A DNA stretch of 28,861 nt from a virus. Position numbers and translations under genes: made by a program. Under the pieces are notes generated by a model. That model did not search any database and was not told the origin of the DNA. It was given only the letters and a program-made list of their open reading frames with translations. The stretch spans positions 1-28,861 of the IMG/VR virus record IMGVR_UViG_3300028393_000270. One strand, written 5' to 3'. Shown here piece after piece: positions 11,848 to 28,120 of this stretch (within the stretch, counting starts at the first letter, position 1; each line of letters starts with the position of its first letter).

Positions 11848-11850
11848 TTA

Positions 11851-12072: not shown

Positions 12073-12080
12073 ATTAATAC

Positions 12081-12389: not shown

Positions 12390-12390
12390 A

Positions 12391-12585: not shown

Positions 12586-12589
12586 ATTA

Positions 12590-12805: not shown

Positions 12806-12806
12806 A

Positions 12807-13233: not shown

Positions 13234-13284
13234 GATTATACTGTAGATTGGATAAAATTAAGTTATACGTTAAATCGGATATTA

Positions 13285-13485
13285 TTATGTTTCCTCACGA
13301 TCTCCAATATATTTCGCACTCAATTCAATCTCATTTCTTGCTAGAGTGTCAAGCAAACCTAGTGCTAGATCTTTGATAGCCTTTTCTCCAGCACCACCAG
13401 CTTGTTCTATTGCTTCTTTCAAAGCAAGATAATTATTATGATATAGCAGATCTCTTTTTGATTCAAAAATGTAACTCATGATCAT
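13285..13485 (-). CDS. Small helical protein, 66 residues
   Basis: Not recognised. Ala/Leu-rich helices (YLALKEAIEQAGGAGEKAIK). The start could be 13485 or the ATG two codons later (MSYIF); both follow the stop of the small membrane gene upstream. Confidence 0.6.
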   Translation of the reverse strand: MIMSYIFESKRDLLYHNNYLALKEAIEQAGGAGEKAIKDLALGLLDTLARNEIELSAKYIGDREET

Positions 13486-13489
13486 GATA

Positions 13490-13612
13490 TTATTTTACGC
13501 ACTGACAAGGAGGGCCTGCTACATACTTAATGGATTTTGCTTGTAGGTAAAATCCTAAACATATAAACGCAATGACGAAAGGGATGAAAAGGATTTTTAA
13601 TAGGTTAGTCAT
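13490..13612 (-). CDS. Small membrane protein, 40 residues
   Basis: A 41-codon ORF that overlaps the upstream gene by eight bases and ends just before the 13285-13485 gene. One membrane helix near the N-terminus (LLKILFIPFVIAFICLGFYL) and a Cys-rich end (PPCQC). The hydrophobic helix and the clean junctions support a real gene, of the kind of tiny membrane peptides phages use early in infection. Confidence 0.6.
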   Translation of the reverse strand: MTNLLKILFIPFVIAFICLGFYLQAKSIKYVAGPPCQCVK

Positions 13613-13886
13613 GTTTTAGTGTATGTGCTTTCAATTCTTCTTCAGTTGTTAATTCTTCTTCGGTTGTTAATTCTTTAACATAATTAAAGAAACTTAAAGA
13701 GAACTTATGCTCTGGAAATTCCTCTAGGATCACAGCGCACCAACTAGATGCTAATTCTAATTTGGTGATTGTGTATTCTTTGCCAACCTCTAGAAGCTCA
13801 TTAGCATCTTTGACGATGTTAACAAACCAGAACATGTGTGTACCTTTGAAGGTTACTTTACTACCGATTTTGGGCCATTGTTTCAT
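13605..13886 (-). CDS. Hypothetical protein with internal repeat, 93 residues
   Basis: Begins MKQWPKIGSKVTFKG, a beta-strand start that recurs in the fragment at 15017-15076. The C-terminus has two copies of ELTTEEELTTEEEL encoded by near-identical 21-base repeats. Probably a small beta-barrel-like domain plus acidic helix. Function unknown. Confidence 0.65.
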   Translation of the reverse strand: MKQWPKIGSKVTFKGTHMFWFVNIVKDANELLEVGKEYTITKLELASSWCAVILEEFPEHKFSLSFFNYVKELTTEEELTTEEELKAHTLKHD

Positions 13887-13888
13887 AA

Positions 13889-13933
13889 TTATTTTAAATG
13901 CTGTGCTGCTGCTGTATTAATAATTGTATTCAT
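13889..13933 (-). other. Micro-ORF of 14 codons
   Basis: MNTIINTAAAQHLK, starting in the TAATATG junction after the large 13935-14993 gene and ending two bases before the next ATG. It fills the gap exactly. Peptide or translational relay; not decidable here. Confidence 0.35.
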
Positions 13934-13934
13934 A

Positions 13935-14993
13935 TTATTGCTTGTCCAAGAACTCACCCCTCCAGAGATATCTGGTCACTCTGGGAAGTGCTGCTCTTTC
14001 TTCTTCAGTAATTGTAAATGAATCACCTCCAATGATCTGTTCTATTGTCATCATCAGATACATGAACATATCTTTTTCTTGTGCTAGTTTTGTGATTGAT
14101 TCTTTAAGCTCTTCCAGAGAATCAAATCTCATGGTTGTTGCTGCAATAGCTTTACCTCGTTGTGCAGTCAAAGGCCCGACCATGAATCCCTTGGCAAGAG
14201 AAATAATTTCTTCATCAAAAATTAAATCTTGATCAATTTTCTCAGCATGTTCCCTAATACGTTCTTCCCATTCTTCTCTGGTATAATTGATATCAGGAAT
14301 CGTAGCCTCATGATGAATTATAGGAGCAAACCTATCCGTCTTCTTTTCGAATTTTGTGGTGATTGTGCCGTCCCTATTCATGGTCAGAATCTTGTCGTAT
14401 TCTGGATGTAGATTGTCTTCTAATGCTTTCTTGAGCATCTCTCTGAATTCAGCAACGATCTCTTCATCTGTTCTTACATCAGACTTTTGAGGTTCTAAAA
14501 CTTCAAATGTTGGAATCGTTTCAGCATAAAGAGATACTTTACGCTTAATGTGACCGATTGCTCCCATCCAAAAATCAGGTTCATTCGATGCAAACTTTAG
14601 TACTTCATCGTCCAGCAATTCAACCAATTCTCGAATTGATTTGGTAATTTGGTATTCTTTATCTGAAATGTTCTGGAGCTTCAACTCCATTGCTAAGTAC
14701 TCATTAAGTTCTTCTAGAGTTTCGCAATCGGTTCCTTTAAATGAAAATGTTTCATTCCAACTAATTCTATTTTTGTAGAATTTATTAAACACATCACGAT
14801 CTACGATCTTGGCTACAAATGTTGTAGTGATATCATCGGGACCAACAGGACCATTGATTGTAAATAGAATTTGTAAACCTACATGTGTTTCATCACGGAG
14901 TTTCTTTTCGTGTCTAAAATAATGATCAAGACTTTTAAAGAATTCTGCTTTATCTTTAACTAAAATATTTGGTTTATTACTTTTGTTTTTCAT
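13935..14993 (-). CDS. Hypothetical protein, 352 residues
   Basis: The largest gene of the accessory zone; not recognised. Charged, mostly helical, no membrane segment. N-terminal third contains alternating segments ending THVGLQILFTINGPVGPDD; C-terminal third has AQRGKAIAATTMRF and ends TRYLWRGEFLDKQ. Preceded by the truncated 15017-15076 fragment with about 23 bases between. Function unknown. Confidence 0.75.
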   Translation of the reverse strand: MKNKSNKPNILVKDKAEFFKSLDHYFRHEKKLRDETHVGLQILFTINGPVGPDDITTTFVAKIVDRDVFNKFYKNRISWNETFSFKGTDCETLEELNEYLAMELKLQNISDKEYQITKSIRELVELLDDEVLKFASNEPDFWMGAIGHIKRKVSLYAETIPTFEVLEPQKSDVRTDEEIVAEFREMLKKALEDNLHPEYDKILTMNRDGTITTKFEKKTDRFAPIIHHEATIPDINYTREEWEERIREHAEKIDQDLIFDEEIISLAKGFMVGPLTAQRGKAIAATTMRFDSLEELKESITKLAQEKDMFMYLMMTIEQIIGGDSFTITEEERAALPRVTRYLWRGEFLDKQ

Positions 14994-15016
14994 TATAAAT
15001 TTTGTTTACTTTTTTT

Positions 15017-15076
15017 CTATAACCTGATCTGTTGTGCTTTGAACTTCACTTTACCGATTTTGGGCCATTGTTTCAT
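15017..15076 (-). pseudogene. Truncated copy of the 13605-13886 gene start
   Basis: A 19-codon frame MKQWPKIGKVKFKAQQIRL with TAG. Its first 25 bases are identical to the first 25 of the 13605-13886 gene; after a three-base gap the next codons are still related (KVKFK against KVTFK), then it diverges and stops. A gene remnant, or a translated leader for the 352-residue gene. Confidence 0.65.
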
Positions 15077-15077
15077 A

Positions 15078-15284
15078 TCAATCAAATCTGTTGGTGATCT
15101 CTCTGGGTTGCATGTACTTTGCTAGAATTACGAAATTATCCAAATCATATTCTTTAGCAAAATCAATTGCTTCTTTTTCTGATTTGAATGTTCTCCAAAC
15201 GGCTACAGGCTCTCCGTTTTTATATGAAGGAGTTTTTAGTTTGCCTTTTTCTGTTACTTTGCGAATGAAATATTCTTTGTTCAT
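15078..15284 (-). CDS. Hypothetical protein, 68 residues
   Basis: Start at ATG 15284 (MNKEYFIRKV) after the upstream TAG; a longer form from 15308 would overlap that gene. FKSEKEAIDFAKEYDLDN is a common alpha/beta motif of small phage proteins. Function unknown. Confidence 0.6.
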   Translation of the reverse strand: MNKEYFIRKVTEKGKLKTPSYKNGEPVAVWRTFKSEKEAIDFAKEYDLDNFVILAKYMQPREITNRFD

Positions 15285-15292
15285 AATATTTT

Positions 15293-15544
15293 CTAAAATG
15301 TTCTCCACTGTTCTAATTTTTTATCAACAACGCAATTGTTATCATTAAGAAATTTTTCTACTTTAGATGCTCTATATAACCATTGCTGTATTGAATTCTG
15401 AATGCCAAACAAGTCTTTGTCATTCTTTAAAAGACCTTGCATATACATATGTTCAAGATATTTCATACTTCGAATAACCTCATGCATGAAATGAAGTTCG
15501 GCCTTTTTTGCTTCGATGAGCTTATCTATTTTTTTAGTTTCCAT
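15293..15544 (-). CDS. Helical hypothetical protein, 83 residues
   Basis: Not recognised. Predicted all-helical, N-terminal METKKIDKLIEAKKAEL. Its start lies within the last 11 bases of the 15534-15713 gene. Confidence 0.65.
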   Translation of the reverse strand: METKKIDKLIEAKKAELHFMHEVIRSMKYLEHMYMQGLLKNDKDLFGIQNSIQQWLYRASKVEKFLNDNNCVVDKKLEQWRTF

Positions 15545-15713
15545 AGATTATTTCAAATGTATAACCATCTAATTCTTTATATATTGGATATAAAGCTTTT
15601 ACTTCACGATCAACTGCTTCTCTATCTTTACGATCAAACTCATAAGAACCACAAAGCCTTTTACCGCTTTTGGTTCTTGAATCTTTTTTGTAAATGTTAA
15701 TAATAAAAATCAT
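15534..15713 (-). CDS. Hypothetical protein, 59 residues
   Basis: A 60-codon ORF joined to both neighbours by overlap (ATGA at its start, 11 bases at its stop). Mixed charged protein: beta start MIFIINIYKK, then a helix DREAVDREVKALYPIYKEL and a final beta strand. Function unknown. Confidence 0.65.
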   Translation of the reverse strand: MIFIINIYKKDSRTKSGKRLCGSYEFDRKDREAVDREVKALYPIYKELDGYTFEIIYGN

Positions 15714-15838
15714 TTAGATAATTGCTTGCTATGAATCTTAACAGATTCTACGCTATTGTCAATCATTTTAAAAATTCCACTAAAGCCTACTGTGCTGATG
15801 ATGACTCCGACGATTACTCCGACGAAAAATGTTTTCAT
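15710..15838 (-). CDS. Small membrane protein, 42 residues
   Basis: A 43-codon ORF with one N-terminal membrane helix (FFVGVIVGVIISTVGFSGIF) and a polar tail. ATG two bases after the upstream TAA; stop overlaps the next ATG. Consistent with a tiny phage membrane protein; function unknown. Confidence 0.6.
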   Translation of the reverse strand: MKTFFVGVIVGVIISTVGFSGIFKMIDNSVESVKIHSKQLSK

Positions 15839-15840
15839 AA

Positions 15841-16053
15841 TTATATTTCTACAGTGCGATGTTCGGGTGTTCTCAAAAGTTGTGTGTATGTGTGCGTTAT
15901 TTTAGTGACTGACCATTTAAGTTTCGGACGTTCTTTTTTACAAATTTCCAACTTATCAAATGCTTCTTGTTCGCTTCGAGCTATTGAAGCAGCCCATAAC
16001 GCATCACCCAAAAGATATTCAATTAAATATTCTTCGTAATTTCGATTGTTCAT
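15841..16053 (-). CDS. Hypothetical protein, 70 residues
   Basis: Start at ATG 16053 (MNNRNYEEYL) in a TAATATG context; the longer form from 16095 overlaps the small membrane gene upstream. Contains an Ala/Glu helix (GDALWAASIARSEQEAFDKL). Function unknown. Confidence 0.6.
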   Translation of the reverse strand: MNNRNYEEYLIEYLLGDALWAASIARSEQEAFDKLEICKKERPKLKWSVTKITHTYTQLLRTPEHRTVEI

Positions 16054-16057
16054 ATTA

Positions 16058-16195
16058 CTACCATTCATTCTTGATAACTTGCTTGTGAAATGCACTCATT
16101 GCCTTGCAGCATGATGCGGGTATAGCTAACGTAGCACATACAAAAATCCAAAGCAAGCAAAATTTTAACAATTTTTCTTTCAATTCTTCGTTCAT
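16058..16195 (-). CDS. Small membrane or secreted protein, 45 residues
   Basis: A 46-codon ORF between the methyltransferase stop (TAG, two bases before its ATG) and the 15841-16053 gene. A hydrophobic helix (LLKFCLLWIFVCATLAIPAS) with a Cys pair at its end could be an anchor or a signal peptide. Third such tiny membrane gene in 3 kb. Confidence 0.55.
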   Translation of the reverse strand: MNEELKEKLLKFCLLWIFVCATLAIPASCCKAMSAFHKQVIKNEW

Positions 16196-16197
16196 AA

Positions 16198-16980
16198 CTA
16201 TTTTTTCAAAACCATCGTATAGGGTGTTAATGAATTGGCAATTTTCATTTTAGTTGTTGCTATGATTTCATATCCGATCTCTTCTACAATAATTTTCATC
16301 TCCCATTTAGAAACAGTATAAACCACTTGTCCGTAATGATAGGTTCGGGGAGCATCTATTACATACATCAAATTGAAATATCCACCATACGGTAATATTT
16401 CATATACTTGCTTCAAATATTTTATAATCTGTAATCGAGACAAATGCTGAAAAGTATTAGATGAATAGAAAAGGTTAATCTTTTCTTTATATAAATTTAC
16501 TTGGTATTGTGAAAACGTCCCATCATGACCTCCGACTTCCAAAGCTGATGAAGTACGAGCGATAATATCAAATCCTCTATAGTCTACGTCTTGGTGTTTA
16601 TTCCACTCGAAGAAGTTTTCGAAGAAAGAACCATACCCGCATCCAATTTCCGCTATCGATGCATACTTCATTATTGATTTCAATTCAGATATTAACCATT
16701 CAGTCTGAGCTACCATACCCATATTCAATGGGATTTTATAATTAGCTTTATTGGATTCCTGAATAGATAAAGTGGTATCTTTTAGGTTATTGTGATTGCA
16801 TACTGGATCTGTGGCAAAGTGTTCTTCTGCTGCTGTCCAGAATTCTCTGGGATCGACTCTATCGGGATCTAGCGCATTTAGAACCAGATGAGGTTCTGGG
16901 GACTTTAGATGATTATGATAATCCCATAAAGTATTCCATCCCGTATCTTTCCACAGTTGGATAATAGTCTTTTTGTTCAT
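16198..16980 (-). CDS. Class I SAM-dependent methyltransferase
   Basis: 260 residues. The SAM-binding motif I is at about 109-117 (IAEIGCGYG), followed by an acidic residue at the end of the next strand (RGFDII) and the late motif with NTFQHLS and the LPYGGYFNLMYV strand, the usual Rossmann methyltransferase order. An N-terminal extension of about 85 residues precedes the fold. The general shape recalls methyltransferases acting on sugars or small molecules rather than DNA, but the substrate cannot be read. Its start overlaps the sigma-factor stop as ATGA, so the two are translated together. Confidence 0.85.
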   Translation of the reverse strand: MNKKTIIQLWKDTGWNTLWDYHNHLKSPEPHLVLNALDPDRVDPREFWTAAEEHFATDPVCNHNNLKDTTLSIQESNKANYKIPLNMGMVAQTEWLISELKSIMKYASIAEIGCGYGSFFENFFEWNKHQDVDYRGFDIIARTSSALEVGGHDGTFSQYQVNLYKEKINLFYSSNTFQHLSRLQIIKYLKQVYEILPYGGYFNLMYVIDAPRTYHYGQVVYTVSKWEMKIIVEEIGYEIIATTKMKIANSLTPYTMVLKK

Positions 16981-17468
16981 GACAGCATCTTTATCAATTT
17001 CTTTTTTGCGATGTTAACTCTATTATATAAAGTTTGAGCAGGTACACCGAATTTCTCTGCTAGATCTTTTATCTGTTCTCCATTTATATAAACCTTCATG
17101 AATAGATCTTTGATATCTTCGTCTAAACTATCTAGTGCTATTTGTAAATTATCGTATCGCTCGTCTTCTTCTTTATAGTCAGTCTGATATTTTAAACATA
17201 CCACATCATACACTTCACTATCGAATGATACGGGACACCGATTAACAGATCTCCTATAATTATTAGCTTGGAATTTGGCAATTGTAGCAGCCCACGAAAA
17301 AAACGAGGTTTCTTTATTAAAGGTCTCGTATTTTTTCCACATAGTTAATGATGCCTTTTGGAAAATATCTTCAGCATCAACAGATGCTCTGATATTTTTT
17401 TTAATAAAACTAACTAATGCTGTCCTATTATTACGAATATTTTCTTCAAATTCCAATAAGCGATTCAT
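16977..17468 (-). CDS. ECF-like sigma-70 family factor A
   Basis: 163 residues from the ATG at 17468 (MNRLLEFEEN); the frame extends to 17498, but that start lies inside the upstream gene. Region 2 is visible as FIKKNIRASVDAEDIFQKAS, then FSWAATIAKFQANNYRR; region 4 as IKDLAEKFGVPAQTLYNRVN with a KKLIKML end. This combination resembles ECF sigma factors of Planctomycetota/Verrucomicrobiota. It should bind host core RNA polymerase and direct it to a chosen promoter set, perhaps phage middle or late genes. A second sigma factor of a different subtype is at 21794-22300. Confidence 0.85.
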   Translation of the reverse strand: MNRLLEFEENIRNNRTALVSFIKKNIRASVDAEDIFQKASLTMWKKYETFNKETSFFSWAATIAKFQANNYRRSVNRCPVSFDSEVYDVVCLKYQTDYKEEDERYDNLQIALDSLDEDIKDLFMKVYINGEQIKDLAEKFGVPAQTLYNRVNIAKKKLIKMLS

Positions 17469-17481
17469 GTTAATATTATAA

Positions 17482-17772
17482 TCACATATTATCATCAATG
17501 CAAGGAGAATCTGTGTAATTTTTCATATGATATTGAACCTTTTGTGTACAAACACGGATATAATTCATAGATATTTCTACTTGTTTATATGAAATATGAG
17601 ATATGAATATATCATCAATATACAATTCGTCCATATTGTTCTGTGCAGTCTCAATTATAGATTTGAGACTGTTGAGCAACTCTTTTTTATGTCCTGCTTT
17701 ATTTAGTTTTTCCATAAAGTCTGAGATACTGGGTTTTGTTCTAGAATTTGTCCCAGATTCAACGAACCTCAA
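17482..17772 (-). CDS. Hypothetical protein upstream of sigma factor A
   Basis: 96 residues from a TTG at 17772, or 77 from the ATG at 17715 (MEKLNKAGHKKEL), which I find the safer start. Helical, with a C-terminal acidic end. It lies 13 bases before the sigma ATG; an anti-sigma role is possible by position only. A 9-bp inverted repeat (17646-17654 / 17663-17671, stem CAGTCTCAA) lies in the gene. Confidence 0.5.
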   Translation of the reverse strand: MRFVESGTNSRTKPSISDFMEKLNKAGHKKELLNSLKSIIETAQNNMDELYIDDIFISHISYKQVEISMNYIRVCTQKVQYHMKNYTDSPCIDDNM

Positions 17773-17943
17773 TCATAAGGAGAAGAAAGAGTATAGCCGT
17801 CATAGTCGATTTAACTATCATTATAGAACCAAACTTCGACAAACATCCTATAATGTTTTTCTATTTTTCAATAGAAATACGGGGACTACCCGCTAGGTCA
17901 ACTAGTTTTACATCATAGACTGGATGTTTCCTTGGGGGGAAAT
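17773..17943. other. Non-coding gap between tRNA-Met and the 17772 gene
   Basis: 171 bases without a convincing gene on either strand. It holds an 8-bp hairpin (17858-17865 / 17870-17877) whose - strand form has a GAAA loop but no T tract, and a - strand TATAAT (17820-17825) lacking a good -35. It may carry the promoter of the gene pair to its left. Confidence 0.4.
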
Positions 17944-18018
17944 TGGTTGCAGGAAGAGGAATCGAACCTCTGACCTCCAGCTTATGAGACTGGTGAGCTA
18001 CCACTGCTCCATCCCGCG
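17944..18018 (-). tRNA. tRNA-Met (CAT), initiator-like
   Basis: A full cloverleaf of 75 bases including an encoded 3' CCA. Acceptor CGCGGGA / TCCTGCA leaves position 1-72 as C-A, the mismatch that marks bacterial initiator tRNA. D stem GAGC/GCTC (A11-T24, also an initiator trait), anticodon loop CTCATAA, variable loop AGGTC, T arm AGAGG-TTCGATT-CCTCT. The anticodon stem CCAGT/GCTGG lacks the three consecutive G-C pairs normally required for P-site entry, so it is an incomplete initiator. A CAT anticodon can also be tRNA-Ile2, but the 1-72 mismatch argues against that. Confidence 0.9.
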
Positions 18019-18043
18019 ATTAAAATTGATAACTCTGTAGATG

Positions 18044-18078
18044 CTATATTGGCTAGACATTACATCCAACCAATATAG
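18044..18078. repeat. 9-bp inverted repeat upstream of tRNA-Met
   Basis: CTATATTGG at 18044-18052 and CCAATATAG at 18070-18078, 17 bases apart, in the 127-base gap between the 18146-18604 gene and the tRNA. No T tract follows. Could be an operator-like site or a processing hairpin. A second small palindrome (AACTATT-AG-AATAGTT) lies further right in the same gap. Confidence 0.5.
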
Positions 18079-18145
18079 ACATCCAAGATTATTTACTCAA
18101 CTATTAGAATAGTTTAAACTAAATTTTCATTAGTGCAAGCCTTTT

Positions 18146-18604
18146 CTACAACTTTTTATTATCGTTGTTGAAATCTTCGCAGGATTTACATAAGGTAGTA
18201 ACCCATTTGCTGCCTGTTCGTGTACCACGTTCACCACAAAATTCACAAATACTAGCACTCATCTGTTCCGCCATTGCTACAACCCCATTTACATATGGGG
18301 TTGTATTATCTGAATAAATTCTTAGAGTAGAAAATTTAGATTTTACCTGACAAATAACTGGAAGTTCTGATTTGTGTTTGGCTACTTCCTTTTCAAGTTC
18401 GGCAATCAAATCTGGATTCTTATCATTTACTTTTGCATGATCCAGACTCCATAATGCTTGATTGTATCTTGAAGTTATCAAGGTAAATACATTATCTAAT
18501 AGTAGTGTCCATCCTTTCGAACATTCGATTCCAAAATGACTAATAGGCTCATTAGAATCGTCAGCAGGAAACAGATATCTATATTTTTGAAATAAATTTT
18601 TCAT
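18146..18604 (-). CDS. Conserved phage-type protein with C4 zinc finger
   Basis: 152 residues. The layout matches a family common in phages: an N-terminal FGIECSKGWTLLLDNV segment, a middle strand VICQVKSKFSTLRIY, and a C-terminal zinc finger CEFCGERGTRTGSKW followed by TLCKSC. Four cysteines in two C-x2-C pairs support zinc binding. Function unknown. Start overlaps the upstream stop (TAATG). Confidence 0.75.
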   Translation of the reverse strand: MKNLFQKYRYLFPADDSNEPISHFGIECSKGWTLLLDNVFTLITSRYNQALWSLDHAKVNDKNPDLIAELEKEVAKHKSELPVICQVKSKFSTLRIYSDNTTPYVNGVVAMAEQMSASICEFCGERGTRTGSKWVTTLCKSCEDFNNDNKKL

Positions 18605-19119
18605 TAATTATTTTTTTGCATATACTTTGTGATTTGATCCGAATTCATGGCAGCATACAATTTTGCTGATTTGATTATGCTGTGATCTAGTACAATTAAA
18701 GATAAATTAGACTCATGTGCATGACCTTCTCCCGTATTATGGTACATCAATAAATCATATTTGCCTTTATATTGATCTTCGTCTTGCTGATCTTGGTCAT
18801 ACCCCAAATCTTTTACCAGTTTTGGGTAAATCCTTTTAGGTTCAATCCTAAGCTCATGAATGTGAGCAACATCATAATCCCCTTCGTCGTTTACTTTATA
18901 ATCAGCCCTCCAAATAGCTTGGAATAAAGAACCTACATGAACTCCAAGATCAGGTCTCGATTTGATTTTATTAAGAAATGGTTCTTTTGAAGCACATGCA
19001 TGATAGGCTATAATCGTAGCAGAATTAATTAATTCTGCTGGTGTTGTATTTCTGTCTAATGCCATCATTTTGTTGACAGATTCTACATACAATTTGTTAA
19101 TATCGTCGGTAAATTTCAT
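18604..19119 (-). CDS. Hypothetical protein, 171 residues
   Basis: Not recognised. Helical N-terminus, then several His-containing stretches (AYHACASKEP, VAHIHELRIEP, YHNTGEGHAHESN) that could form a metal site, though no known motif is clear. It lies directly after tRNA-Tyr and overlaps the zinc-finger gene by one base. Confidence 0.7.
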   Translation of the reverse strand: MKFTDDINKLYVESVNKMMALDRNTTPAELINSATIIAYHACASKEPFLNKIKSRPDLGVHVGSLFQAIWRADYKVNDEGDYDVAHIHELRIEPKRIYPKLVKDLGYDQDQQDEDQYKGKYDLLMYHNTGEGHAHESNLSLIVLDHSIIKSAKLYAAMNSDQITKYMQKNN

Positions 19120-19148
19120 TATTGTAACTATTTACTATATTAAATTTA

Positions 19149-19234
19149 TGGTGGGTAGTGTGGGGATCGAGCCCACCCAGCATTGCTGCGCCAGATTTAC
19201 AGTCTGGACTGCGTCCTTAGCAGTATAACTACCC
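19149..19234 (-). tRNA. tRNA-Tyr (GTA)
   Basis: 86 bases with encoded CCA. Acceptor GGGTAGT / ACTACCC, D stem ACTGC/GCAGT, anticodon arm CCAGA-CTGTAAA-TCTGG (anticodon GTA), a long variable arm with its own short stem (CAGC/GCTG) as expected for bacterial tRNA-Tyr, and T arm GTGGG-CTCGATC-CCCAC. A TAATAT with a TG extension just upstream (about 19240-19260) may be its promoter. Confidence 0.92.
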
Positions 19235-19281
19235 ATTAAATGGATACTATATTACCACTATATAGAAAAAAAGCAAGTAAT

Positions 19282-20541
19282 TTATGCTATCAAATCTTTT
19301 ACTGGTTGTCCATTATAGACAATTGCCACCGGTCTCCCCCCAGATGCTTGTAGTTTTGCATCTGGATCGATACCTAATTGTGTATACAATGTAGCTGCAA
19401 GATTTTCAATAGTCAATGGATCAGTTTCAACATCGCTACCAGTGGCATCAGATGAACCGTATACATGACCTCGTTTGAATCCACCACCAGCGAACACAAC
19501 GGAGAATACACGGGGCCAATGATCTCGTCCAGCATCTTTGTTGATCTTTGGGGTACGACCGAATTCTGAGCTTATCATTACTATGGTGGAATCCAATAAT
19601 CCACGTTGTTCTAGATCATTAATTAATGTAGCATATGCCTGATCGAACTGTGGAAGTTGTTTGCTCATCCCATTAGCAATGCCAGTATGCATGTCCCAGC
19701 CTCCGTATGTAACAGAAACGAACCTTACACCCGCCTCTACCAGTCTTCGAGCCATAAGCAGCCGTTGACCCGCTTGATTCAATCCATAGGCTTCTTTCAT
19801 TACTTGGGGTTCTTTGTCCAAGGCAAATGCTTCTTTAGCTTTCGGTGATGAAATCAAATCATATGCCTTCTGATAGAAACTATCCATTGCTGCCAAGCTA
19901 TCGCTATTCTCTTGATACTTGAAATGGCTATCAACAGTTTCTAATATACTTCTACGTTTATCAAATCGTTCTTGACTAACGGTGGAATTTAAATCTCTTA
20001 CCTTGAATCCTGCCGCTGCTGGATCAGATCCAAGACTGAAGGGGCCAAACGCTTTTGATAGGTAACCAGCATCAGCAACATCTCCTAGCTTTTGAGGAAC
20101 GCATACATATGCTGGAAGATTTTCACGATCTCCTAATTGATTAGATACCACTGAACCAAATGATGGATACTCTAATGCAGGGGAAGGACGGTAACCAGTG
20201 AACATAGTAGATGTACCACGTTCATGTGCAGCATCACCATGCGTCATGGAATGTACTACGGTTAATTTATTAGCGATCTTAGCAGTCTTCTGTAGATACT
20301 CAGAGAACTGTAATCCATCTACTGAGGTAGGAATAGCCTTTAAAGGCCCCCGATACTCAGATGGTGCCATTGGATGTGGATCAAATGTCTCATGAGCTGA
20401 AGACCCACCCGGCAAATAAATATGAATTACCGATTTAGCCTTCGGTGTTAGATTGGATTCTGCTTGTAATTTGAGGATATCTCCCATTGATAATCCCAAT
20501 CCCCCAACAAGTCCACTATAAAGGAAGTCTCTTCGGTTCAT
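19282..20541 (-). CDS. DUF1501 protein with Tat signal (alkaline-phosphatase/sulfatase fold)
   Basis: 419 residues, normal length for DUF1501. It begins MNRRDFLYSGLVGGLGLSMG, a twin-arginine (RR) signal. Family blocks in order: IYLPGGSSAHETFDPHP at about 41-57, HGDAAHERGTSTMFTGYRP at 101-119, TYGGWDMH at 278-285, ISSEFGRTPKINKDAGRDHW at 323-342, AGGGFKRGHVYGSSD at 351-365. DUF1501 belongs to the alkaline-phosphatase-like clan and is abundant in Planctomycetota and Verrucomicrobiota, rarely elsewhere. The product should be exported. The gene is richer in G+C than its neighbours (32 of 60 bases at 19681-19740 against 17 of 60 at 18601-18660) and has its own consensus promoter, both signs of recent acquisition. 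Confidence 0.93.
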   Translation of the reverse strand: MNRRDFLYSGLVGGLGLSMGDILKLQAESNLTPKAKSVIHIYLPGGSSAHETFDPHPMAPSEYRGPLKAIPTSVDGLQFSEYLQKTAKIANKLTVVHSMTHGDAAHERGTSTMFTGYRPSPALEYPSFGSVVSNQLGDRENLPAYVCVPQKLGDVADAGYLSKAFGPFSLGSDPAAAGFKVRDLNSTVSQERFDKRRSILETVDSHFKYQENSDSLAAMDSFYQKAYDLISSPKAKEAFALDKEPQVMKEAYGLNQAGQRLLMARRLVEAGVRFVSVTYGGWDMHTGIANGMSKQLPQFDQAYATLINDLEQRGLLDSTIVMISSEFGRTPKINKDAGRDHWPRVFSVVFAGGGFKRGHVYGSSDATGSDVETDPLTIENLAATLYTQLGIDPDAKLQASGGRPVAIVYNGQPVKDLIA

Positions 20542-20558
20542 TCTAGTATTTAGATTAG

Positions 20559-20587
20559 ATTATAATATAAATGTATAAAACTGTCAA
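20559..20587 (-). promoter_or_regulatory. Perfect sigma70 promoter for the DUF1501 gene
   Basis: On the - strand TTGACA (20587-20582), a spacer of exactly 17 bases, then TATAAT (20564-20559). The ATG is at 20541, so transcription should start about ten bases before it, leaving almost no leader and little room for a ribosome site. One of only two perfect matches I found in the window. Confidence 0.8.
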
Positions 20588-20589
20588 GT

Positions 20590-21534
20590 TTATTTTTTAT
20601 AAGGATTTTTTAAATACGGTCTTCTATAAGAAGTTTGCATTGCTTCTTCTTTAGATCTTTTAAATGTACGTTTGGGTTCACCAGAAATTCTTGGTGATGC
20701 ATTCGATGCATCTAATGATTTAATATCTTTAAGTATAATCGGTCTTTCTAAGAATTTTTTAATAGTTCTATATAAGTCGGTAAATGCAACATCTGTAGGT
20801 TTTCTAAATGCTGTATTGTCAAACAATAAATAATCCGCCCCAAAAAAGTCTTCGAACTTTGGTTGATTACTTTGAAATTGCTTCCATATATCTTCTATTA
20901 CTTCTGGTTTTAAGGACCTACTTCTTTTTGCATTTCTTTTCTGACATATTTCCAGATCCGCGTTTACTGCCACCATATAGGTATCGTAACCTTGTTCGGT
21001 AAATGCTTTTATTCCTATCATAGTAGATTCATAACTTTTTCCCGTACCTGCTATTATAACTCCCAATTTCTCCTGCATATATAATTGGGATTGAGATTTC
21101 ATACCTTCGTATCCAGTATCTCCCGGCATTCCTCCGTAAGTTACTGCTGATGCCATACCTCTTATATCTTTGAAAGTTTCGTTGTCGTTTTCTGAAAAAT
21201 CAGATCCATTTATTTCACCACCCAATCTTTTCATAGAACCCTTCCTTATAGCTTCGGATCTTTCTTTTGGATCTGTTATATCAGTTACTGCCACTCCACC
21301 TTTGTTTCTAATTTCTTTCGGAGTTGCTAGACCAGCTTTAATTAAATTGTATTCGGTTGCTACGTCCATATCTAACAATTTGAGCCCAAATCCTGCTAGA
21401 TTTTCGGCAATATACGACTTTCCACATCCTGCTGGTCCTACTAAAAATAATGCCTTCTTTTGATATTTGTCGTGTATACCTTCTAATATAATTAATTGTG
21501 AGTACCACTTATCGAAAGAATTGACCGGTTTCAT
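20590..21534 (-). CDS. P-loop kinase/ATPase (zeta-toxin-like)
   Basis: 314 residues. Walker A GPAGCGKS at 33-40 after a short beta strand (KALFLV), then a DMD acidic end of the second strand. A long insertion (about residues 70-150) rich in Gly/Asp precedes a second strand IIAGTGKSYEST and a lid region with CQKRNAKRSRSLKP. This is the layout of phage zeta-toxin/AAA-like kinases. Substrate unknown; T4 polynucleotide kinase is one relative in fold, but no phosphatase domain is present. The Arg/Lys-rich tail may bind RNA. Confidence 0.75.
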   Translation of the reverse strand: MKPVNSFDKWYSQLIILEGIHDKYQKKALFLVGPAGCGKSYIAENLAGFGLKLLDMDVATEYNLIKAGLATPKEIRNKGGVAVTDITDPKERSEAIRKGSMKRLGGEINGSDFSENDNETFKDIRGMASAVTYGGMPGDTGYEGMKSQSQLYMQEKLGVIIAGTGKSYESTMIGIKAFTEQGYDTYMVAVNADLEICQKRNAKRSRSLKPEVIEDIWKQFQSNQPKFEDFFGADYLLFDNTAFRKPTDVAFTDLYRTIKKFLERPIILKDIKSLDASNASPRISGEPKRTFKRSKEEAMQTSYRRPYLKNPYKK

Positions 21535-21543
21535 TATTGATAT

Positions 21544-21789
21544 TTATATTAATTTATCAGGTTTTTCTACAAATTCTGAATATACAAATACAAAACTTAA
21601 TGCTTTTCCGACATCATCTACTCTGAAACTACTAATCTTTTCATTTTCTTTATCAAACGGACAAAGGGGATCATACACTAATCCGTGTATGATCCCCATT
21701 CTTTCGACATATTTTGACCAATTCTCGTAACTATTATCACGAGGATTGGACACTCTATGAGTTTTTTTTATGAAGATATAACTATCCAC
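21544..21789 (-). CDS. Hypothetical protein, 81 residues
   Basis: Not recognised. GTG start at 21789; no earlier in-frame ATG. Its middle contains a perfect 13-bp hairpin in the coding sequence (21666-21697). Basic N-terminus (KKTHRVSNPRDNSYENW). Confidence 0.55.
   Translation of the reverse strand: MDSYIFIKKTHRVSNPRDNSYENWSKYVERMGIIHGLVYDPLCPFDKENEKISSFRVDDVGKALSFVFVYSEFVEKPDKLI
21666..21697 (-). repeat. Perfect 13-bp inverted repeat inside a gene
   Basis: GGGGATCATACAC at 21666-21678 and GTGTATGATCCCC at 21685-21697, loop of six. On the - strand it is followed by TTTG only, so not an obvious terminator. As strong as the in-gene hairpin at 1341-1375. Confidence 0.85.
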
Positions 21790-21793
21790 ATAA

Positions 21794-22300
21794 TTATTTA
21801 GATAATTCCTTCTCCATTAAAATTCTTAGCTTATTGAGTGCACGATTCTGAAGAAAACCTACATTACCCACTGTAGCTCCGACTTTTTTTCCAGTTTGTT
21901 CGTAATTCAAATCTTGGTAGAATCTACAAATTAGTACTGATTTTTGCTTATCTGAAAGCATTTTCATCAATTCTAACATCAATCTCTTTTTTTCGTTATG
22001 TTCCAATTCTTCCGATGGATCACGGTCTTCTACCAGTGATTCATCTTCGAATGCTTCTACATATCTTTTGTTTTTTTTAAGAGTTTTTAGTGAACAATTA
22101 CGACAAACTGTGAATAGCCATGCAGACATATGTCCACTTAGTTTATCATAATCCTGCTTCCACAAGCGTGTAAACACTTCGTGTACGGTTTCTTCCGATC
22201 TTTGACGATCTTTAGTTATATTAATCGAATATGCCAATAATTTTTTATAGTACATTTCATATAAATTATTAAAACATGCGGGTGTAATCTGATTACTCAT
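21794..22300 (-). CDS. ECF-like sigma-70 family factor B
   Basis: 168 residues. Region 2: EETVHEVFTRLWKQ, then SAWLFTVCRNCSLKTLKK; linker acidic; region 4: LSDKQKSVLICRFYQDLNYE followed by TGKKVGATVGNVGFLQNRALNKLR. The NVGFLQ form of region 4 is frequent in Planctomycetota/Verrucomicrobiota ECF factors. It is a different subtype from factor A. It probably redirects host RNA polymerase. An AGGAG lies 14 bases before the ATG, and a four-codon micro-ORF (MILL) overlaps the start. Confidence 0.87.
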   Translation of the reverse strand: MSNQITPACFNNLYEMYYKKLLAYSINITKDRQRSEETVHEVFTRLWKQDYDKLSGHMSAWLFTVCRNCSLKTLKKNKRYVEAFEDESLVEDRDPSEELEHNEKKRLMLELMKMLSDKQKSVLICRFYQDLNYEQTGKKVGATVGNVGFLQNRALNKLRILMEKELSK

Positions 22301-22366
22301 AATAATATCATCGGCTCCTAGTAACTACGGTTTGTTTTTTGCATATTCAACTGACTAAGGTTATCA

Positions 22367-22579
22367 TTATTCGATATATTCTCCATATGCAATAATAAAT
22401 AAAAAAGTTTTACGTTTATCTATAACCTCGAAATGAAATGTATTCTTCCTCCATGCGGTATACATTAACCCATAATTGTATATCATTATTTTGCTGAAAT
22501 CACTAAAATCTTTGTAATAGATTTCATTATTATAATAAAATTTACTTCGTATTCTAATGTTCTGTGGGGTTTTATCCAT
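22367..22579 (-). CDS. Hypothetical protein, 70 residues
   Basis: Not recognised. Aromatic-rich, many Tyr/Phe (KFYYNNEIYYKDF). It overlaps the zinc-ribbon gene stop by eight bases, so both are read from the consensus promoter at 22756-22784. Confidence 0.6.
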   Translation of the reverse strand: MDKTPQNIRIRSKFYYNNEIYYKDFSDFSKIMIYNYGLMYTAWRKNTFHFEVIDKRKTFLFIIAYGEYIE

Positions 22580-22715
22580 CTACTTCTTCTGCTTCTTGTT
22601 TTTTACCACAATAATCACATTTGTCCACATATTCTGGATGGACTTTATCTTCTTCTATCAATTCTATCCATGCATTATCACAATCTACACAATAAAATCT
22701 ACATAATTTTTTCAT
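22572..22715 (-). CDS. Zinc-ribbon protein, 47 residues
   Basis: Start at ATG 22715 (MKKLCRFYCVDCDNAW). The longer form from 22784 would run through the promoter, so it is rejected. Two C-x2-C knuckles (CVDC and CDYCGKK) separated by about 23 residues make a rubredoxin-like zinc ribbon. Such tiny phage proteins may contact nucleic acid or host RNA polymerase. First gene after a perfect sigma70 promoter, hence likely early. Confidence 0.75.
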   Translation of the reverse strand: MKKLCRFYCVDCDNAWIELIEEDKVHPEYVDKCDYCGKKQEAEEVDG

Positions 22716-22755
22716 ATTTATATTTACGAAATGTTGTAATAGTTTGTAAGAGAGT

Positions 22756-22784
22756 ATTATACTATAATTATTGAAATATGTCAA
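22756..22784 (-). promoter_or_regulatory. Perfect sigma70 promoter for the zinc-ribbon gene
   Basis: On the - strand TTGACA (22784-22779), exactly 17 bases, TATAAT (22761-22756). The zinc-ribbon ATG is at 22715, giving a leader of about 35 bases. Confidence 0.8.
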
Positions 22785-22822
22785 TAAACTTCGAATTTGT
22801 GAAGAATATATGAAATCTATCT

Positions 22823-23065
22823 CTATATCGATTTATTAAAATGTAAATATAATCTATCATACTCACTTACGTTCATCCAATGCCTATTAATTTGAATGAA
22901 ATCTTTCATTCTTGATTCGTCCCATTCAGTATTGGAGTAATAATACTTATCGTTTTTATATTCCAAGGGATATCTAAACAAATCTTTGAATAGTGTGACT
23001 TGGTCACCTAAAGATATTTTATCCATATTATCATTTACATTCTTACATACGGTTAAGAAGTCCAT
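22823..23065 (-). CDS. Hypothetical protein, 80 residues
   Basis: Not recognised. Charged and aromatic, N-terminal MDFLTVCKNVNDNMDKISLG. Eight bases after the stop of the HExxH gene. Confidence 0.6.
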   Translation of the reverse strand: MDFLTVCKNVNDNMDKISLGDQVTLFKDLFRYPLEYKNDKYYYSNTEWDESRMKDFIQINRHWMNVSEYDRLYLHFNKSI

Positions 23066-23073
23066 GAATATAT

Positions 23074-23391
23074 TTATAGTTTTTTTATAAAAAATATCAA
23101 TAATCTAATCGCATCATCCGAAGAAATAGTGCTCATTATTCTTCTTTCTGAATATCCTACTTGAGTTTCACTCCAATCAGGTTCTAATAAGTGTATACAC
23201 TCATGTACTACTGTAGGTATCAGATCTTTTCTATAATCTATTAAAATACCATCTTCCCACTCGCAATAACCATGTACTCCTTTGAGTTTTTGAAATGTAA
23301 AAAAACTCTTTTTTTGAGTTTTTATACAAGAAATAACTCTCTCGAATAATGCTAGGCTATCTTCGTCTGATAATTTATATGTTTTTGCCAC
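23074..23391 (-). CDS. HExxH metallopeptidase-like protein
   Basis: 105 residues. The zinc motif HECIH is at 63-67, in the context LIPTVVHECIHLLEPDWSET with Glu75 as a possible third ligand. A strand DGILIDYRKD precedes it, as in small phage and bacterial HExxH proteins of the SprT-like kind. Whether it is an active protease or only keeps the fold cannot be told. Nine bases after the stop of the 23401-23919 gene. Confidence 0.7.
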   Translation of the reverse strand: MAKTYKLSDEDSLALFERVISCIKTQKKSFFTFQKLKGVHGYCEWEDGILIDYRKDLIPTVVHECIHLLEPDWSETQVGYSERRIMSTISSDDAIRLLIFFIKKL

Positions 23392-23400
23392 ATAAATTAT

Positions 23401-23919
23401 TTATACTTCTTTATACCATAATGGAATTTCTCGTTTTGTCCATGTGGCGAATGGTTTATCGTATTTATAATATAGACGATACTGATCTACTACTGGCAAA
23501 TTATCAAATCCTGCAATTTTTCTGCAATTTTTATCTTCTGCTATTGCAATGGCAAATTTCGTAATCCCGCCAATGTCCACACTAGATTTAGCAATGGAAG
23601 AGGCAACCCAGTCCACAAAAGCAAAAGAAAAATGTGGATTGTACCCACGATACAAACGCTCATTTTCCAATTCGATAGTGTGTTCAACCGCCCATTCGAG
23701 ATTACCTGTCGTTTCTCGCATCCATTTAGAAACTGGATGATTGAAGTACGAGTGCTTTCTGGTAGTGCCTTTTTGTGTTTTGGGTGCATATTGTAGGGTT
23801 TCTAAACTAAAGCAGTTTGCTGCCATTTGGCAGAACTCTAATAGGATTTTATTTACATGGGTATCACAATTATAACGTGCTGCTACTGATGGATTTTTAT
23901 CTAAAATAAACAGATTCAT
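23401..23919 (-). CDS. Conserved T4-type phage protein (MN-x-F family)
   Basis: 172 residues. N-terminus MNLFILDKNPSVAARYNCDT with HVNKILLEFCQMA, then a middle HPVSKWMRETTGNLEWAVEH and C-terminus ATWTKREIPLWYKEV. This order is that of a protein found in many T4-like and other large phages, without a proven function that I can name. The Cys-Asp and His in the first motif are strictly kept in the family as I recall it. Confidence 0.8.
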   Translation of the reverse strand: MNLFILDKNPSVAARYNCDTHVNKILLEFCQMAANCFSLETLQYAPKTQKGTTRKHSYFNHPVSKWMRETTGNLEWAVEHTIELENERLYRGYNPHFSFAFVDWVASSIAKSSVDIGGITKFAIAIAEDKNCRKIAGFDNLPVVDQYRLYYKYDKPFATWTKREIPLWYKEV

Positions 23920-24290
23920 TCTTGCTCTATCATAGTCAAAACGTCATGATATGTCAAGGGCTGAATGGTTTTTCCCATGATATCTTCGAAGCCAAAAAAT
24001 TGAATCATACTATATGCCTTATGTCGAAATGGCAGCTCCAGAAATTTATCCAGTTTTTGTCCACAATATTTCAGAAAATTATTTCTTTCATTTTCGTTAA
24101 TCCAACTTTTTAGGGTGACCAACTCTTCGATTTCCGATTCATTCAAAAATCCTAATTCGAAATTATAATCATCAATTTTATAGAAACACAAGTATTGATC
24201 GGATTTTTCATTTCTGCAAATAAATCCATGTTTATTCAAAGCAGATTTGAGGTCTTTTTCAAATCCTTGGAACCGTAGATCTTTTGACAT
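23916..24290 (-). CDS. Hypothetical protein, 124 residues
   Basis: Start at ATG 24290 (MSKDLRFQGFEKDLK) in a TAATATG junction; the longer frame runs into the upstream gene. Alpha/beta, with LFLCFY-like strands. Stop overlaps the next gene as ATGA. Function unknown. Confidence 0.65.
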   Translation of the reverse strand: MSKDLRFQGFEKDLKSALNKHGFICRNEKSDQYLCFYKIDDYNFELGFLNESEIEELVTLKSWINENERNNFLKYCGQKLDKFLELPFRHKAYSMIQFFGFEDIMGKTIQPLTYHDVLTMIEQE

Positions 24291-24291
24291 A

Positions 24292-24537
24292 TTAGGCTTT
24301 GAAAAAATTATTCCAATTACTTTCAATAAATTCTGAAATAACCATTTCCAAATTTGGATCTGATGATGTAATATGATAATTTTTATTATCATACTTTGTA
24401 GTGTAATCACATTTAATATTGAATGCTTTTTCTACATTTTTATTAATGTTAAACGCAAACGATTCTACTTGTTGCATATCTTCCGGATTTCCGAAATATT
24501 TTGGATTAATGTCAATTACTAGGTTTGTTTTGTTCAT
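24292..24537 (-). CDS. Hypothetical protein, 81 residues
   Basis: Not recognised. Asn/Phe-rich mixed sequence (FAFNINKNVEKAFNIKCDYT). First gene after the 257-base gap at 24538-24794. Confidence 0.6.
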   Translation of the reverse strand: MNKTNLVIDINPKYFGNPEDMQQVESFAFNINKNVEKAFNIKCDYTTKYDNKNYHITSSDPNLEMVISEFIESNWNNFFKA

Positions 24538-24794
24538 GTTTTTTTATTTGTCTTCTGATATTTTAATAATAACTACTAAAAATAATAAAGGAAACCATTC
24601 GAGATTTAATATATTAAGAAATTTTAATATAATGAAGGTAATTAATAAAACCATTATAATATTTAATGATTTTATTGAAATTCACCTCCCACCCTTTAGA
24701 AGGGATGGGAGGCTATACACATGACCATAGGATGTAGCGATATCCTTCTGTGCATAATTTTATTTAGTTCAAATTAGTTATGAAGTCTTATACT
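24538..24794. other. Non-coding gap with a strong GC-rich hairpin
   Basis: No gene is supported on either strand. At 24685-24712 a 12-bp stem (CCTCCCA-CCCTT / AAGGG-A-TGGGAGG, three-base loop, one bulge) stands out in AT-rich surroundings. About 30 bases further right a weaker AGGAT/ATCCT pair lies inside a larger possible fold. No T tract follows the main stem on either strand, so it is not a standard terminator. Shape and setting recall ends of IS200/IS605-type elements, but no transposase or TnpB gene is present. Confidence 0.5.
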
Positions 24795-25001
24795 TCACTT
24801 TTTTTTCTTTTTGCGGTTTATGGGAGTGATTTCCCATTTTCTGTCTCTAAAGTCTATGAAAAATGTATCTTTAAGTTCGTCGAATCCTTCGTCGATTAGA
24901 TAATCGAATAGTTTTTGTCCCTCTTCTTTATACTCTACCGAAGCGAAGAAGTCAACATCAAAACTGCCGTATTTATCTATAGGATCGATTCGAAATTTCA
25001 T
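24795..25001 (-). CDS. Small protein with Lys-rich tail, 68 residues
   Basis: Not recognised. MKFRIDPIDKYGSFDVDFFA, an alpha/beta body with two Asp/Phe-rich strands, and a tail of five lysines. Coupled to the glycosyltransferase stop through TAATATG. Confidence 0.65.
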   Translation of the reverse strand: MKFRIDPIDKYGSFDVDFFASVEYKEEGQKLFDYLIDEGFDELKDTFFIDFRDRKWEITPINRKKKKK

Positions 25002-25002
25002 A

Positions 25003-26100
25003 TTATAAATGTTTGGTTGTCCACTCGGGGATTTCTGTACAGTTGGATAATATATTAACTAATCTATCATTTACTGTATCTAATGATTTAGCTTGATATA
25101 GACTATCATTGTCTAGCAAAAAAAATAATTTATCTATTTCTGTTTGTTCTAGACTTTGCCAAATTTCTTTATTTCTTTTCAAAGTTACCTTTGAGTCTAT
25201 CATTTTTAGATGAAATGCATACAGATTATCATTTACTACTGAATCATCATAACATTTATGAAATCCGGGTCCCCATGTAGTAGGTTTAGCTGTAATATAT
25301 GTTTTAATATATGATAAATTGGAATACATTTTAGATCGTTGGGATAAAATAGGATTATTATAATTCAGTTCTAGTTCCTTGGTATAATCGTGTACAACGT
25401 CAAATGCATATTTAGGCTGAATATTTACGGATTCTTGGTATGTGGATAACATTGATTCCCAATCATTATTCTCCGAGACCATTAAGAATTCATCACAATC
25501 AGTATTGATAACCCATTTGTATTGAGTTAATAAAAACCTCTGGAATTGTCCACAATATTTAGAAATATTCCAGTGATCACATTGACCTCTTGGTATAGTT
25601 ACACAATTGACCTCTTTAGGTATCTTATTTTTAAAATCATTTGTCGAACCATGATCTATTACATATATGTTACTATAACCAAATAAACCTCCATAATATT
25701 TTATCCATAAATCCAACATATTCGTTTCGTTGTAAACATGTGTGAATGCAGATATTTTTTGAGATTTATTATAATCTATTTCATGTATAAAAGACATGGA
25801 ATCCATTTTACTATAAAATAAAGGATCCACTTTTATAGATTCCTTGATCATTATAGTATTTCTTCCCTGTAGTATTACATGATTTATATTATTAGCTATA
25901 ATATAATCATGAAGTATTTTAGGATTTTGTAAAATAGATATAACTAACGGATTCGATGAAGATATATCAAAATCGGCAGTAATACTATGTAATACGTCCG
26001 AATCTCTTAGTAATAAAATTCGTACTTCTTCTTTAATTTCTTCAGAAGATTCATCGAATTTAATGTATGATAATCCGTTTTTTATTACTAGTATAGCCAT
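25003..26100 (-). CDS. GT-A glycosyltransferase (GT2/GT92-like)
   Basis: 365 residues. The catalytic domain starts near residue 115: FTHVYNETNMLDLWIKYYGG, then YVIDHGSTNDF and the metal-binding DxD form WVINTDCDEFL at 197-206. This order is that of the Glyco_tranf_2_4/GT92-type families. The N-terminal 110 residues are an unrecognised domain. It transfers a sugar from a nucleotide donor; in phages such enzymes modify DNA, virion proteins or host surface. The target is not visible. Confidence 0.85.
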   Translation of the reverse strand: MAILVIKNGLSYIKFDESSEEIKEEVRILLLRDSDVLHSITADFDISSSNPLVISILQNPKILHDYIIANNINHVILQGRNTIMIKESIKVDPLFYSKMDSMSFIHEIDYNKSQKISAFTHVYNETNMLDLWIKYYGGLFGYSNIYVIDHGSTNDFKNKIPKEVNCVTIPRGQCDHWNISKYCGQFQRFLLTQYKWVINTDCDEFLMVSENNDWESMLSTYQESVNIQPKYAFDVVHDYTKELELNYNNPILSQRSKMYSNLSYIKTYITAKPTTWGPGFHKCYDDSVVNDNLYAFHLKMIDSKVTLKRNKEIWQSLEQTEIDKLFFLLDNDSLYQAKSLDTVNDRLVNILSNCTEIPEWTTKHL

Positions 26101-26111
26101 GCTATCTTTAC

Positions 26112-26351
26112 TTATTCATTTTCTTTAATAAGTTTTTCAAAATCATCGAAATTGAAACCATAATTTTCGGCAGTTTCGATAATCATATCAATATCAATAT
26201 GATTACCTTCTTCTTGTAGACATAGATAATAATCTACGGCATTAGTTTTGGCATTCATTTCCGATGTGGATCTATCAAAAATGATTTCAAATTTTTCAAT
26301 CATTGCACTCTGATCTTCTTCGAATAGGTTATTAAGGATTTTGTTGGACAT
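26112..26351 (-). CDS. Hypothetical acidic protein, 79 residues
   Basis: Not recognised. Helical and acidic, ending DFEKLIKENE. The start overlaps the phosphoesterase stop by 20 bases, so it is read as part of the same unit. Confidence 0.65.
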   Translation of the reverse strand: MSNKILNNLFEEDQSAMIEKFEIIFDRSTSEMNAKTNAVDYYLCLQEEGNHIDIDMIIETAENYGFNFDDFEKLIKENE

Positions 26352-26964
26352 GATGTAATGGGTTAATATCTTTCGTGGACATGATAGCTTCTATCTCCTG
26401 CATAGTCAAGGGTTTTTCGTGGATATCCCACCCACAATCTAGAATTTTATAGGTCTTATCTTCTGGAGTAGAAAGTGTATTATGACCGTGAGAATGTCCA
26501 CACAAATGCATAGAACCTTCATTCATACCTTCCCAAATTTGGATCGGGTAATGAAAACATACAAATTCTTTTTTACTTTTTCTGAAAGTATGATAATGAC
26601 CAAGATACTTAATGAAGATACCTTGATTCCAAGCACAGATTTGCTCTCTAGTGCCTCCATAAGTCTTTTGGATGGGATTGTTGTGATTTCCCCACAACAT
26701 CCAAATTTCTTTGATTTTCAATCTACGTAAAATGTTATGATATTCTTCATATGTTGTATTAAGACAGAAATCTCCCAAATGTAGAAGAATCCCATCCTCT
26801 CCTACAATACTATTAATAGTTTCTATCATATCCGTAGTCATATCCTGCGGAGTTTCATACCCCCTTCTTTTATAAAGAAATTCTTTATTATGATTAAAGT
26901 GTGTATCAGAGGTGACGTATAGTTTATCGTAAACTTCGTCTGTAAGTTTTTGTATTACTTGCAT
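26332..26964 (-). CDS. Calcineurin-like metallophosphoesterase
   Basis: 210 residues with all five phosphoesterase blocks: YVTSDTHFNH (Asp20, His22), LLHLGDF (Asp65), WGNHNN (Asn93, His94), VCFHYP (His138) and GHSHGH (His157, His159). Cytoplasmic by sequence. The family hydrolyses phosphomono- or diesters; phage members of this subtype have no assigned substrate. It begins one base after the stop of RNA ligase B (TAATATG), so a role in preparing RNA ends for ligation is a reasonable hypothesis, not shown. Confidence 0.88.
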   Translation of the reverse strand: MQVIQKLTDEVYDKLYVTSDTHFNHNKEFLYKRRGYETPQDMTTDMIETINSIVGEDGILLHLGDFCLNTTYEEYHNILRRLKIKEIWMLWGNHNNPIQKTYGGTREQICAWNQGIFIKYLGHYHTFRKSKKEFVCFHYPIQIWEGMNEGSMHLCGHSHGHNTLSTPEDKTYKILDCGWDIHEKPLTMQEIEAIMSTKDINPLHHVQQNP

Positions 26965-26965
26965 A

Positions 26966-28081: not shown

Positions 28082-28120
28082 ACGGCAAAGTATACTATCA
28101 GACTTACCATAAATCAAGAA

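Follow-up and report, generated by a model that had tools for sequence, protein, structure and literature searches.

Large tailed viruses that probably infect Verrucomicrobiota and Planctomycetota carry genes of the DUF1501 family, and phages seem to have acquired, on repeated occasions, a component of PVC-bacterial cell-envelope machinery whose function is unexplained. The case described here is an intact DUF1501 gene in a stretch of 28,861 bases with 63 ORFs, which is a whole IMG/VR record (the window). Together with the PSCyt/DUF1549/DUF1553 proteins, DUF1501 is among the largest unexplained families of Planctomycetota and Verrucomicrobiota, and phages with one to four DUF1501 genes, versus dozens in bacteria, offer a small set to test. 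Phage auxiliary genes as a kind and DUF1501 as a family are both already known. The literature searched, which takes in only a minority of subscription papers and preprints, contains no link between DUF1501 and phage biology and, it appears, no description of PVC phages repeatedly capturing DUF1501 sets and haem-c PSCyt partners.

The gene and the phage fragment that carries it

The gene and its neighbours are arranged as follows.

16977-17498, minus strand: second ECF-type sigma factor (phrog_1740)
17944-18018, minus strand: tRNA-Met (CAT)
18604-19119, minus strand: 171-aa neighbour of DUF1501, with a single close viral relative, in phage contig G001
19282-20541, minus strand: DUF1501 (PF07394) gene, 419 aa, type 1 ('IHIYLPGG') subfamily, assigned by Pfam match and phage-clade support of 100/100
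20590-21534, minus strand: 314-aa P-loop kinase-like protein (AAA_33), upstream neighbour of DUF1501
21794-22300, minus strand: ECF-type sigma factor, phage type (phrog_1740)

The DUF1501 ORF begins with ATG and contains no internal stops. Its product matches PF07394 from end to end (375 bits, cut-off 27; E 5e-112; model positions 1-390 all covered), as expected of the full DUF1501 gene proposed in the first-pass annotation. The surroundings described there, with tRNA, sigma-factor and RNA-ligase genes, were also recovered: one tRNA-Met near the gene, both ECF sigma factors listed above and, at 6390-7517 and 26966-28117, two RNA ligases of the T4 type. A close viral relative of the 314-aa kinase-like protein was searched for and none was found. 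PADLOC gave no match between the DUF1501 gene and its anti-phage defence models, and a reading as a defence or anti-defence family was set aside on that result; neither PHROGs nor NCBIfam holds a model for the gene. Elsewhere in the window, two pairs of closely similar small genes (10084-10314 with 11851-12072; 8782-9042 with 12391-12585) suggest duplication within the fragment.

The claim that this is a phage gene stands, since each of four long phage contigs, G001 (236 kb), G010 (227 kb), G456 (190 kb) and G012 (184 kb), has 17-24 of the 63 window ORFs in common. Among 13 long related contigs, eight have a large terminase and four a tail sheath, a baseplate gene is present among the related contigs, and G035 (158 kb) has an end repeat of 122 bases. 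The terminase, sheath and baseplate genes indicate that the relatives are tailed phages, several of them contractile-tailed; by its gene content the window is part of a tailed-phage genome. Measured against jumbo phages (>200 kb), it is a 28.9-kb fragment, while the G001 and G010 contigs reach 236 and 227 kb. That DUF1501 is the sole gene common to the 13 long contigs is a selection effect of contig choice and was dropped as evidence. One 160-kb phage contig carries two large-terminase ORFs (G485:C1:12119-14140 and 153732-155765).

Along its length the window changes affiliation. The first 7.5 kb are collinear with G456/G012 and the stretch from 9.3 to 28 kb with G001; positions 1-7517 track the G456/G012 group and 9359-28117 the G001/G010/G460 group. 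This switch represents recombination or an assembly join, and any assembly join would have linked two phage sequences. Compared with G001, the cassette made up of the DUF1501 gene and the 171-aa gene next to it is displaced: its counterparts lie at 0.85-8.4 kb versus 211.8-230.0 kb for the collinear block. An assembly chimera or bacterial contamination, with the DUF1501 stretch misjoined to phage sequence, would fit this displacement and the different phage group of the first 7.5 kb. It is nevertheless very unlikely, because the two genes are close together in G001 too (the relative of the 171-aa protein lies 5.8 kb, thus <8 kb, from a DUF1501 of 84% identity), the nearest relatives of the gene (67-84% identity) are spread over numerous separate viral contigs that also have phage genes, and its third-position G+C is phage-like. 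The earlier worry about a chimera is thus justified in part: the gene is surely phage-borne on other contigs, but this fragment is mosaic.

Distribution, origin and selection of phage DUF1501 genes

A phage copy of DUF1501 had been expected to be uncommon. A first IMG/VR scan recovered 101 viral stretches, with identities of 53-84% for the best 80 of the 101, and a profile of all phage types recovered about 395, which does not agree with that expectation. Among the 50,697 phage records of INPHARED there was one weak match only, so the sequenced phages held there have hardly shown DUF1501; BFVD contains one uncultured Caudovirales protein of that name. The 'DUF1501' of Pseudomonas phage ZC03 (PMC5418858) was set aside, being merely a 61-aa ORF with a weak hit.

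In phylogenetic trees the phage copies are nested among host copies, in line with the proposed derivation from Verrucomicrobiota and Planctomycetota. In the subtype tree, the clade of the window (15 rows; support 100/100 in the type-1 tree) has Chthoniobacterales and allied Verrucomicrobiota as its sister group, a second phage clade, of marine type (51 rows), is nested in Planctomycetota, and L019, L053 and L063 are separate from both phage clades. Constraining the type-1 phage rows to one clade is rejected (AU p 3.9e-36), which excludes one phage origin of type-1 DUF1501; on these alignments, the window's subtype entered phages several times. A tree had been suggested as a means of naming the host, and the sister position points to Chthoniobacterales as the likely host group. 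The window protein reaches 67% identity with Chthoniobacterales copies, and the host of the window phage would be a member of Verrucomicrobiota, from Chthoniobacterales or a relative.

Many of these phages carry sets of DUF1501 genes. Contigs found with the type-1 query hold 2-4 copies, often in tandem, in 48 of 50 cases, the other two being single-copy fragments of ~30 kb. The statement that all such phages have 2-4 copies holds for these contigs only, since 23 of the 30 contigs found via other types have one. A second copy lies 47 kb off in G001, the closest relative of the window, and may be missing from the window only because the window is a fragment. In the all-type tree, 12 label changes are required to account for the phage rows, well-supported branches forcing 11 of them, and the bacterial sister group differs from type to type (for 2a Verrucomicrobiota, including Chthoniobacter flavus; for 2b and 4 Planctomycetota). 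The phage sets have thus been gathered by separate captures, and an origin of the paralogs by duplication inside phages is unsupported.

The gene is richer in G+C than its neighbours, as had been noted (42.5% versus 33.3% in 18 same-strand neighbours), but this does not mark a transfer. The excess lies at codon positions 1 and 2, while third-position G+C (0.290) is like that of the neighbours (0.269; range 0.15-0.41). The higher G+C is therefore a matter of amino-acid content and leaves the transfer undated; a recent transfer read from G+C was rejected. With a mean G+C of 58% in bacterial relatives, the gene has evidently long been adapted to an A+T-rich carrier. The phage copies share the full-length domain, the Tat signal and all invariant residues with the DUF1501 (PF07394/COG4102) proteins of PVC bacteria, and differ from them in their A+T-rich codon usage and in number, 1-4 copies instead of the 43-106 in each of four host-phylum genomes checked. 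They are under strong purifying selection, with dN/dS of 0.036-0.059 in pairs whose dS does not exceed about 1. The phoA and psbA genes of cyanophages are host-derived, selected auxiliary metabolic genes with an exported or membrane-directed function. DUF1501 is likewise host-derived, selected and exported, but is present as several different family members per genome and was acquired independently by phage groups only distantly related to one another.

Export signal, predicted fold and conserved residues

The N-terminus (MNRRDFLYSGLVGGLGLSMGDILKLQAES) confirms the twin-arginine signal reported in the first-pass annotation. The signal and the invariant motifs are located as follows.

20458-20541, minus strand: Tat (twin-arginine) signal, residues 1-28, MNRRDFLYSGLVGGLGLSMGDILKLQAE, assigned from sequence
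20224-20226, minus strand: codon of invariant His106, at a helix start, which falls on the sulfatase formylglycine Cys in the alignment
19687-19695, minus strand: D283-M284-H285, in the invariant GGWDxH metal-ligand-like motif
19555-19566, minus strand: E326-F327-G328-R329, the invariant EFGR, aligning with sulfatase SDNG/SDHG
19519-19527, minus strand: R339-D340-H341, the invariant RDH motif

R3, R4 and F6 are invariant in 11 phage DUF1501s that cover all types, and among 189 phage proteins 179 show RRx[FLIVM] no later than residue 75; in most of the remaining ten the start was called too far upstream. Judged by these motifs, the Tat signal of phage DUF1501 is nearly universal. H106, D283, H285, E326, R329, R339, D340 and H341 are present in 64/64 phage representatives and in nearly all of 144 bacterial rows.

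An AlphaFold2 model from a 134-row alignment (pLDDT 92.4, pTM 0.90) superseded an earlier one built on a narrower alignment (pLDDT 80). Foldseek searches of the PDB gave 221 matches at E<=1e-3, the lowest E being 2e-7, but TM-scores were only about 0.4; the best among the matches listed were sulfatases, LtaS/LtaP and phosphonate monoester hydrolases. HHalign against planctomycete sulfatases gave about 94%, with SEFG opposite SDNG, and a search by sequence found no solved homologue. The predicted fold is alkaline-phosphatase/sulfatase-like. With S1-type sulfatases and other AP-superfamily hydrolases the protein has this fold and an alignable C-terminal half in common. It differs in having LPGG where sulfatases have the N-terminal metal-binding DD and in the formylglycine motif (C-x-P/A-S-R), which is missing. 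A formylglycine sulfatase (PF00884) was accordingly rejected, as the C/S-x-P/A-S-R nucleophile motif is replaced by His106. A sulfatase-like fold with invariant residues of its own marks the protein as a member of the superfamily with its own presumed active site, rather than a sulfatase. The literature searched contained no biochemistry on any DUF1501.

Partner genes and a proposed role in infection

The DUF1501 genetic module of PVC bacteria is attributed to Kamneva 2012, as cited in PMC4452313 and PMC4960237. PSCyt/PSD genes are treated in PMC5615132, where PSCyt genes of freshwater Verrucomicrobia are reported near sulfatases. In bacterial type-1 loci the gene that follows encodes an ~800-aa PPC-domain protein in 68 of 75 cases, and the loci without it all belong to Spartobacteria/Verrucomicrobiaceae, among the closest bacterial relatives of the window clade (L082, L085, L087, L088, L089, L090 and L096); these genes are possibly phage-to-host or orphan copies. 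Phage type 1 differs from the bacterial type in that the PPC-domain partner was found in none of the viral loci examined, the window included. Type 2 genes adjoin PSCyt-DUF1549-DUF1553 proteins.

Some phages carry this second kind of partner. A targeted IMG/VR scan found 82 viral PSD1 stretches, some on contigs that could be misclassified bacterial DNA; several PSCyt-bearing viral contigs have a terminase, sheath or baseplate gene that identifies them as phage. A co-directional DUF1501 lies at most 1.5 kb from 70 of the 73 viral PSCyt2/PSD1-type ORFs, with a median gap of 2 bases. Phage examples with PSCyt1, DUF1549 and DUF1553 keep the gene order of the host operons, and in two contigs the gene overlaps the end of the DUF1501 gene.

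L410:9358-12342 (G456): PSCyt1 (haem c)-DUF1549-DUF1553 gene, ~990 aa, two CxxCH motifs
L418:9361-12333 (G460): PSCyt1 (haem c)-DUF1549-DUF1553 gene, ~990 aa, two CxxCH motifs

The PVC module thus recurs in the same order on tailed phages, but most type-1 phages show the DUF1501 half only: of 50 type-1 phage contigs, 49 have no PSD1, and in the window no PSCyt/DUF1549/DUF1553 protein adjoins DUF1501.

We propose, with slightly less than even confidence, that the phage took this auxiliary gene from a host and that it adds an exported hydrolase-like subunit to the host DUF1501/PSCyt machinery during infection. While infecting, the phage would make a folded, Tat-exported protein with an alkaline-phosphatase/sulfatase fold, whose active set would be its own invariant His/Asp/Glu/Arg residues in place of the sulfatase formylglycine. 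Once in the periplasm of the host, it would supplement or replace a subunit of the DUF1501-PSCyt machinery (haem c, DUF1549, DUF1553), which probably acts on charged (sulfated or phosphorylated) polymers. The phage would gain from keeping this machinery running or redirecting it (periplasmic polymer breakdown). Some phages, with a PSCyt1/DUF1549/DUF1553 gene in addition to DUF1501, would supply the complete pair; most, the window's included, supply DUF1501 alone and would rely on host partners. That the protein may join host partners to the benefit of the phage is suggested by the pairing on other phages and by the PSCyt-sulfatase neighbourhood (PMC5615132); the latter is the one point from which the charged-polysaccharide idea is drawn. 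The usual type-1 PPC partner, unseen in the viral loci examined, counts against the proposal, as do the low TM-scores to solved structures.

An exported hydrolase might also act without the PSCyt machinery, by altering charged groups on surface polymer or LPS so that rival phages fail to adsorb or progeny are not stuck to debris. Such envelope remodelling or superinfection exclusion is in keeping with export, with an AP-superfamily fold near the envelope enzymes LtaS/LtaP, with the absence of a partner (PSD1 above all) in most phages and with several distinct paralogs per phage, which could suit different surface groups. We regard it as unlikely, because about 70 viral contigs pair DUF1501 with a cytochrome-type partner for which a hydrolase acting simply at the surface would have no use, and no conserved glycan-modifying neighbour was confirmed; a glycosyltransferase-like neighbour in G010 was dropped as it has no Pfam match. 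The haem-c pairing is also unexpected for a phosphatase and the conserved residues are unlike those of known phosphatases. Nutrient scavenging, in which an exported phosphoesterase would release phosphate for phage DNA synthesis, is therefore distinctly improbable, despite the AP-superfamily fold, a phage paralog that weakly matches the PF01663 phosphodiesterase and the phoA genes that cyanophages carry. A PhoH-type gene, identified by eye, is among the most-shared genes of the 13 long contigs, but such genes are widespread in phages generally. In some marine phages DUF1501 lies amid structural-looking genes (by eye), which could indicate a particle-borne protein acting on host polymer at entry; the nearly universal Tat signal and the usual neighbours of phage DUF1501, nucleotide-metabolism or small exported-protein genes, make a virion component highly improbable. 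A chance-acquired passenger without function is scarcely credible, given dN/dS of 0.04-0.06 in unsaturated pairs, intact invariant residues and repeated captures.

Returning to the proposed contribution to the host DUF1501/PSCyt machinery, phages keep few needless genes, and the separate captures and strong selection point to a process worth controlling in infection. It is conceivable, if rather doubtful, that large PVC phages commonly carry an exported redox/hydrolase module controlling periplasmic polymer breakdown or envelope state. The module would consist of Tat-exported DUF1501s with the haem-c PSCyt1-DUF1549-DUF1553 protein, or of DUF1501 subunits plugging into a host module, and if true would be phage-encoded periplasmic electron-transfer/hydrolase machinery, a class not described before.

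Other exported-looking genes occur beside phage DUF1501s. In G035, a DUF1559/SBP_bac_10 pseudopilin with an N-methylation motif, a planctomycete hallmark (L193:2676-3656), has as neighbours two DUF1501s and an exported protease of the trypsin type. Small exported-looking proteins, some proline-rich, some Cys-rich and one with a Tat-like start, recur beside DUF1501 in marine loci of Planctomycetota-type phages (L199:4179-4565; clusters c20, c32 and c33).
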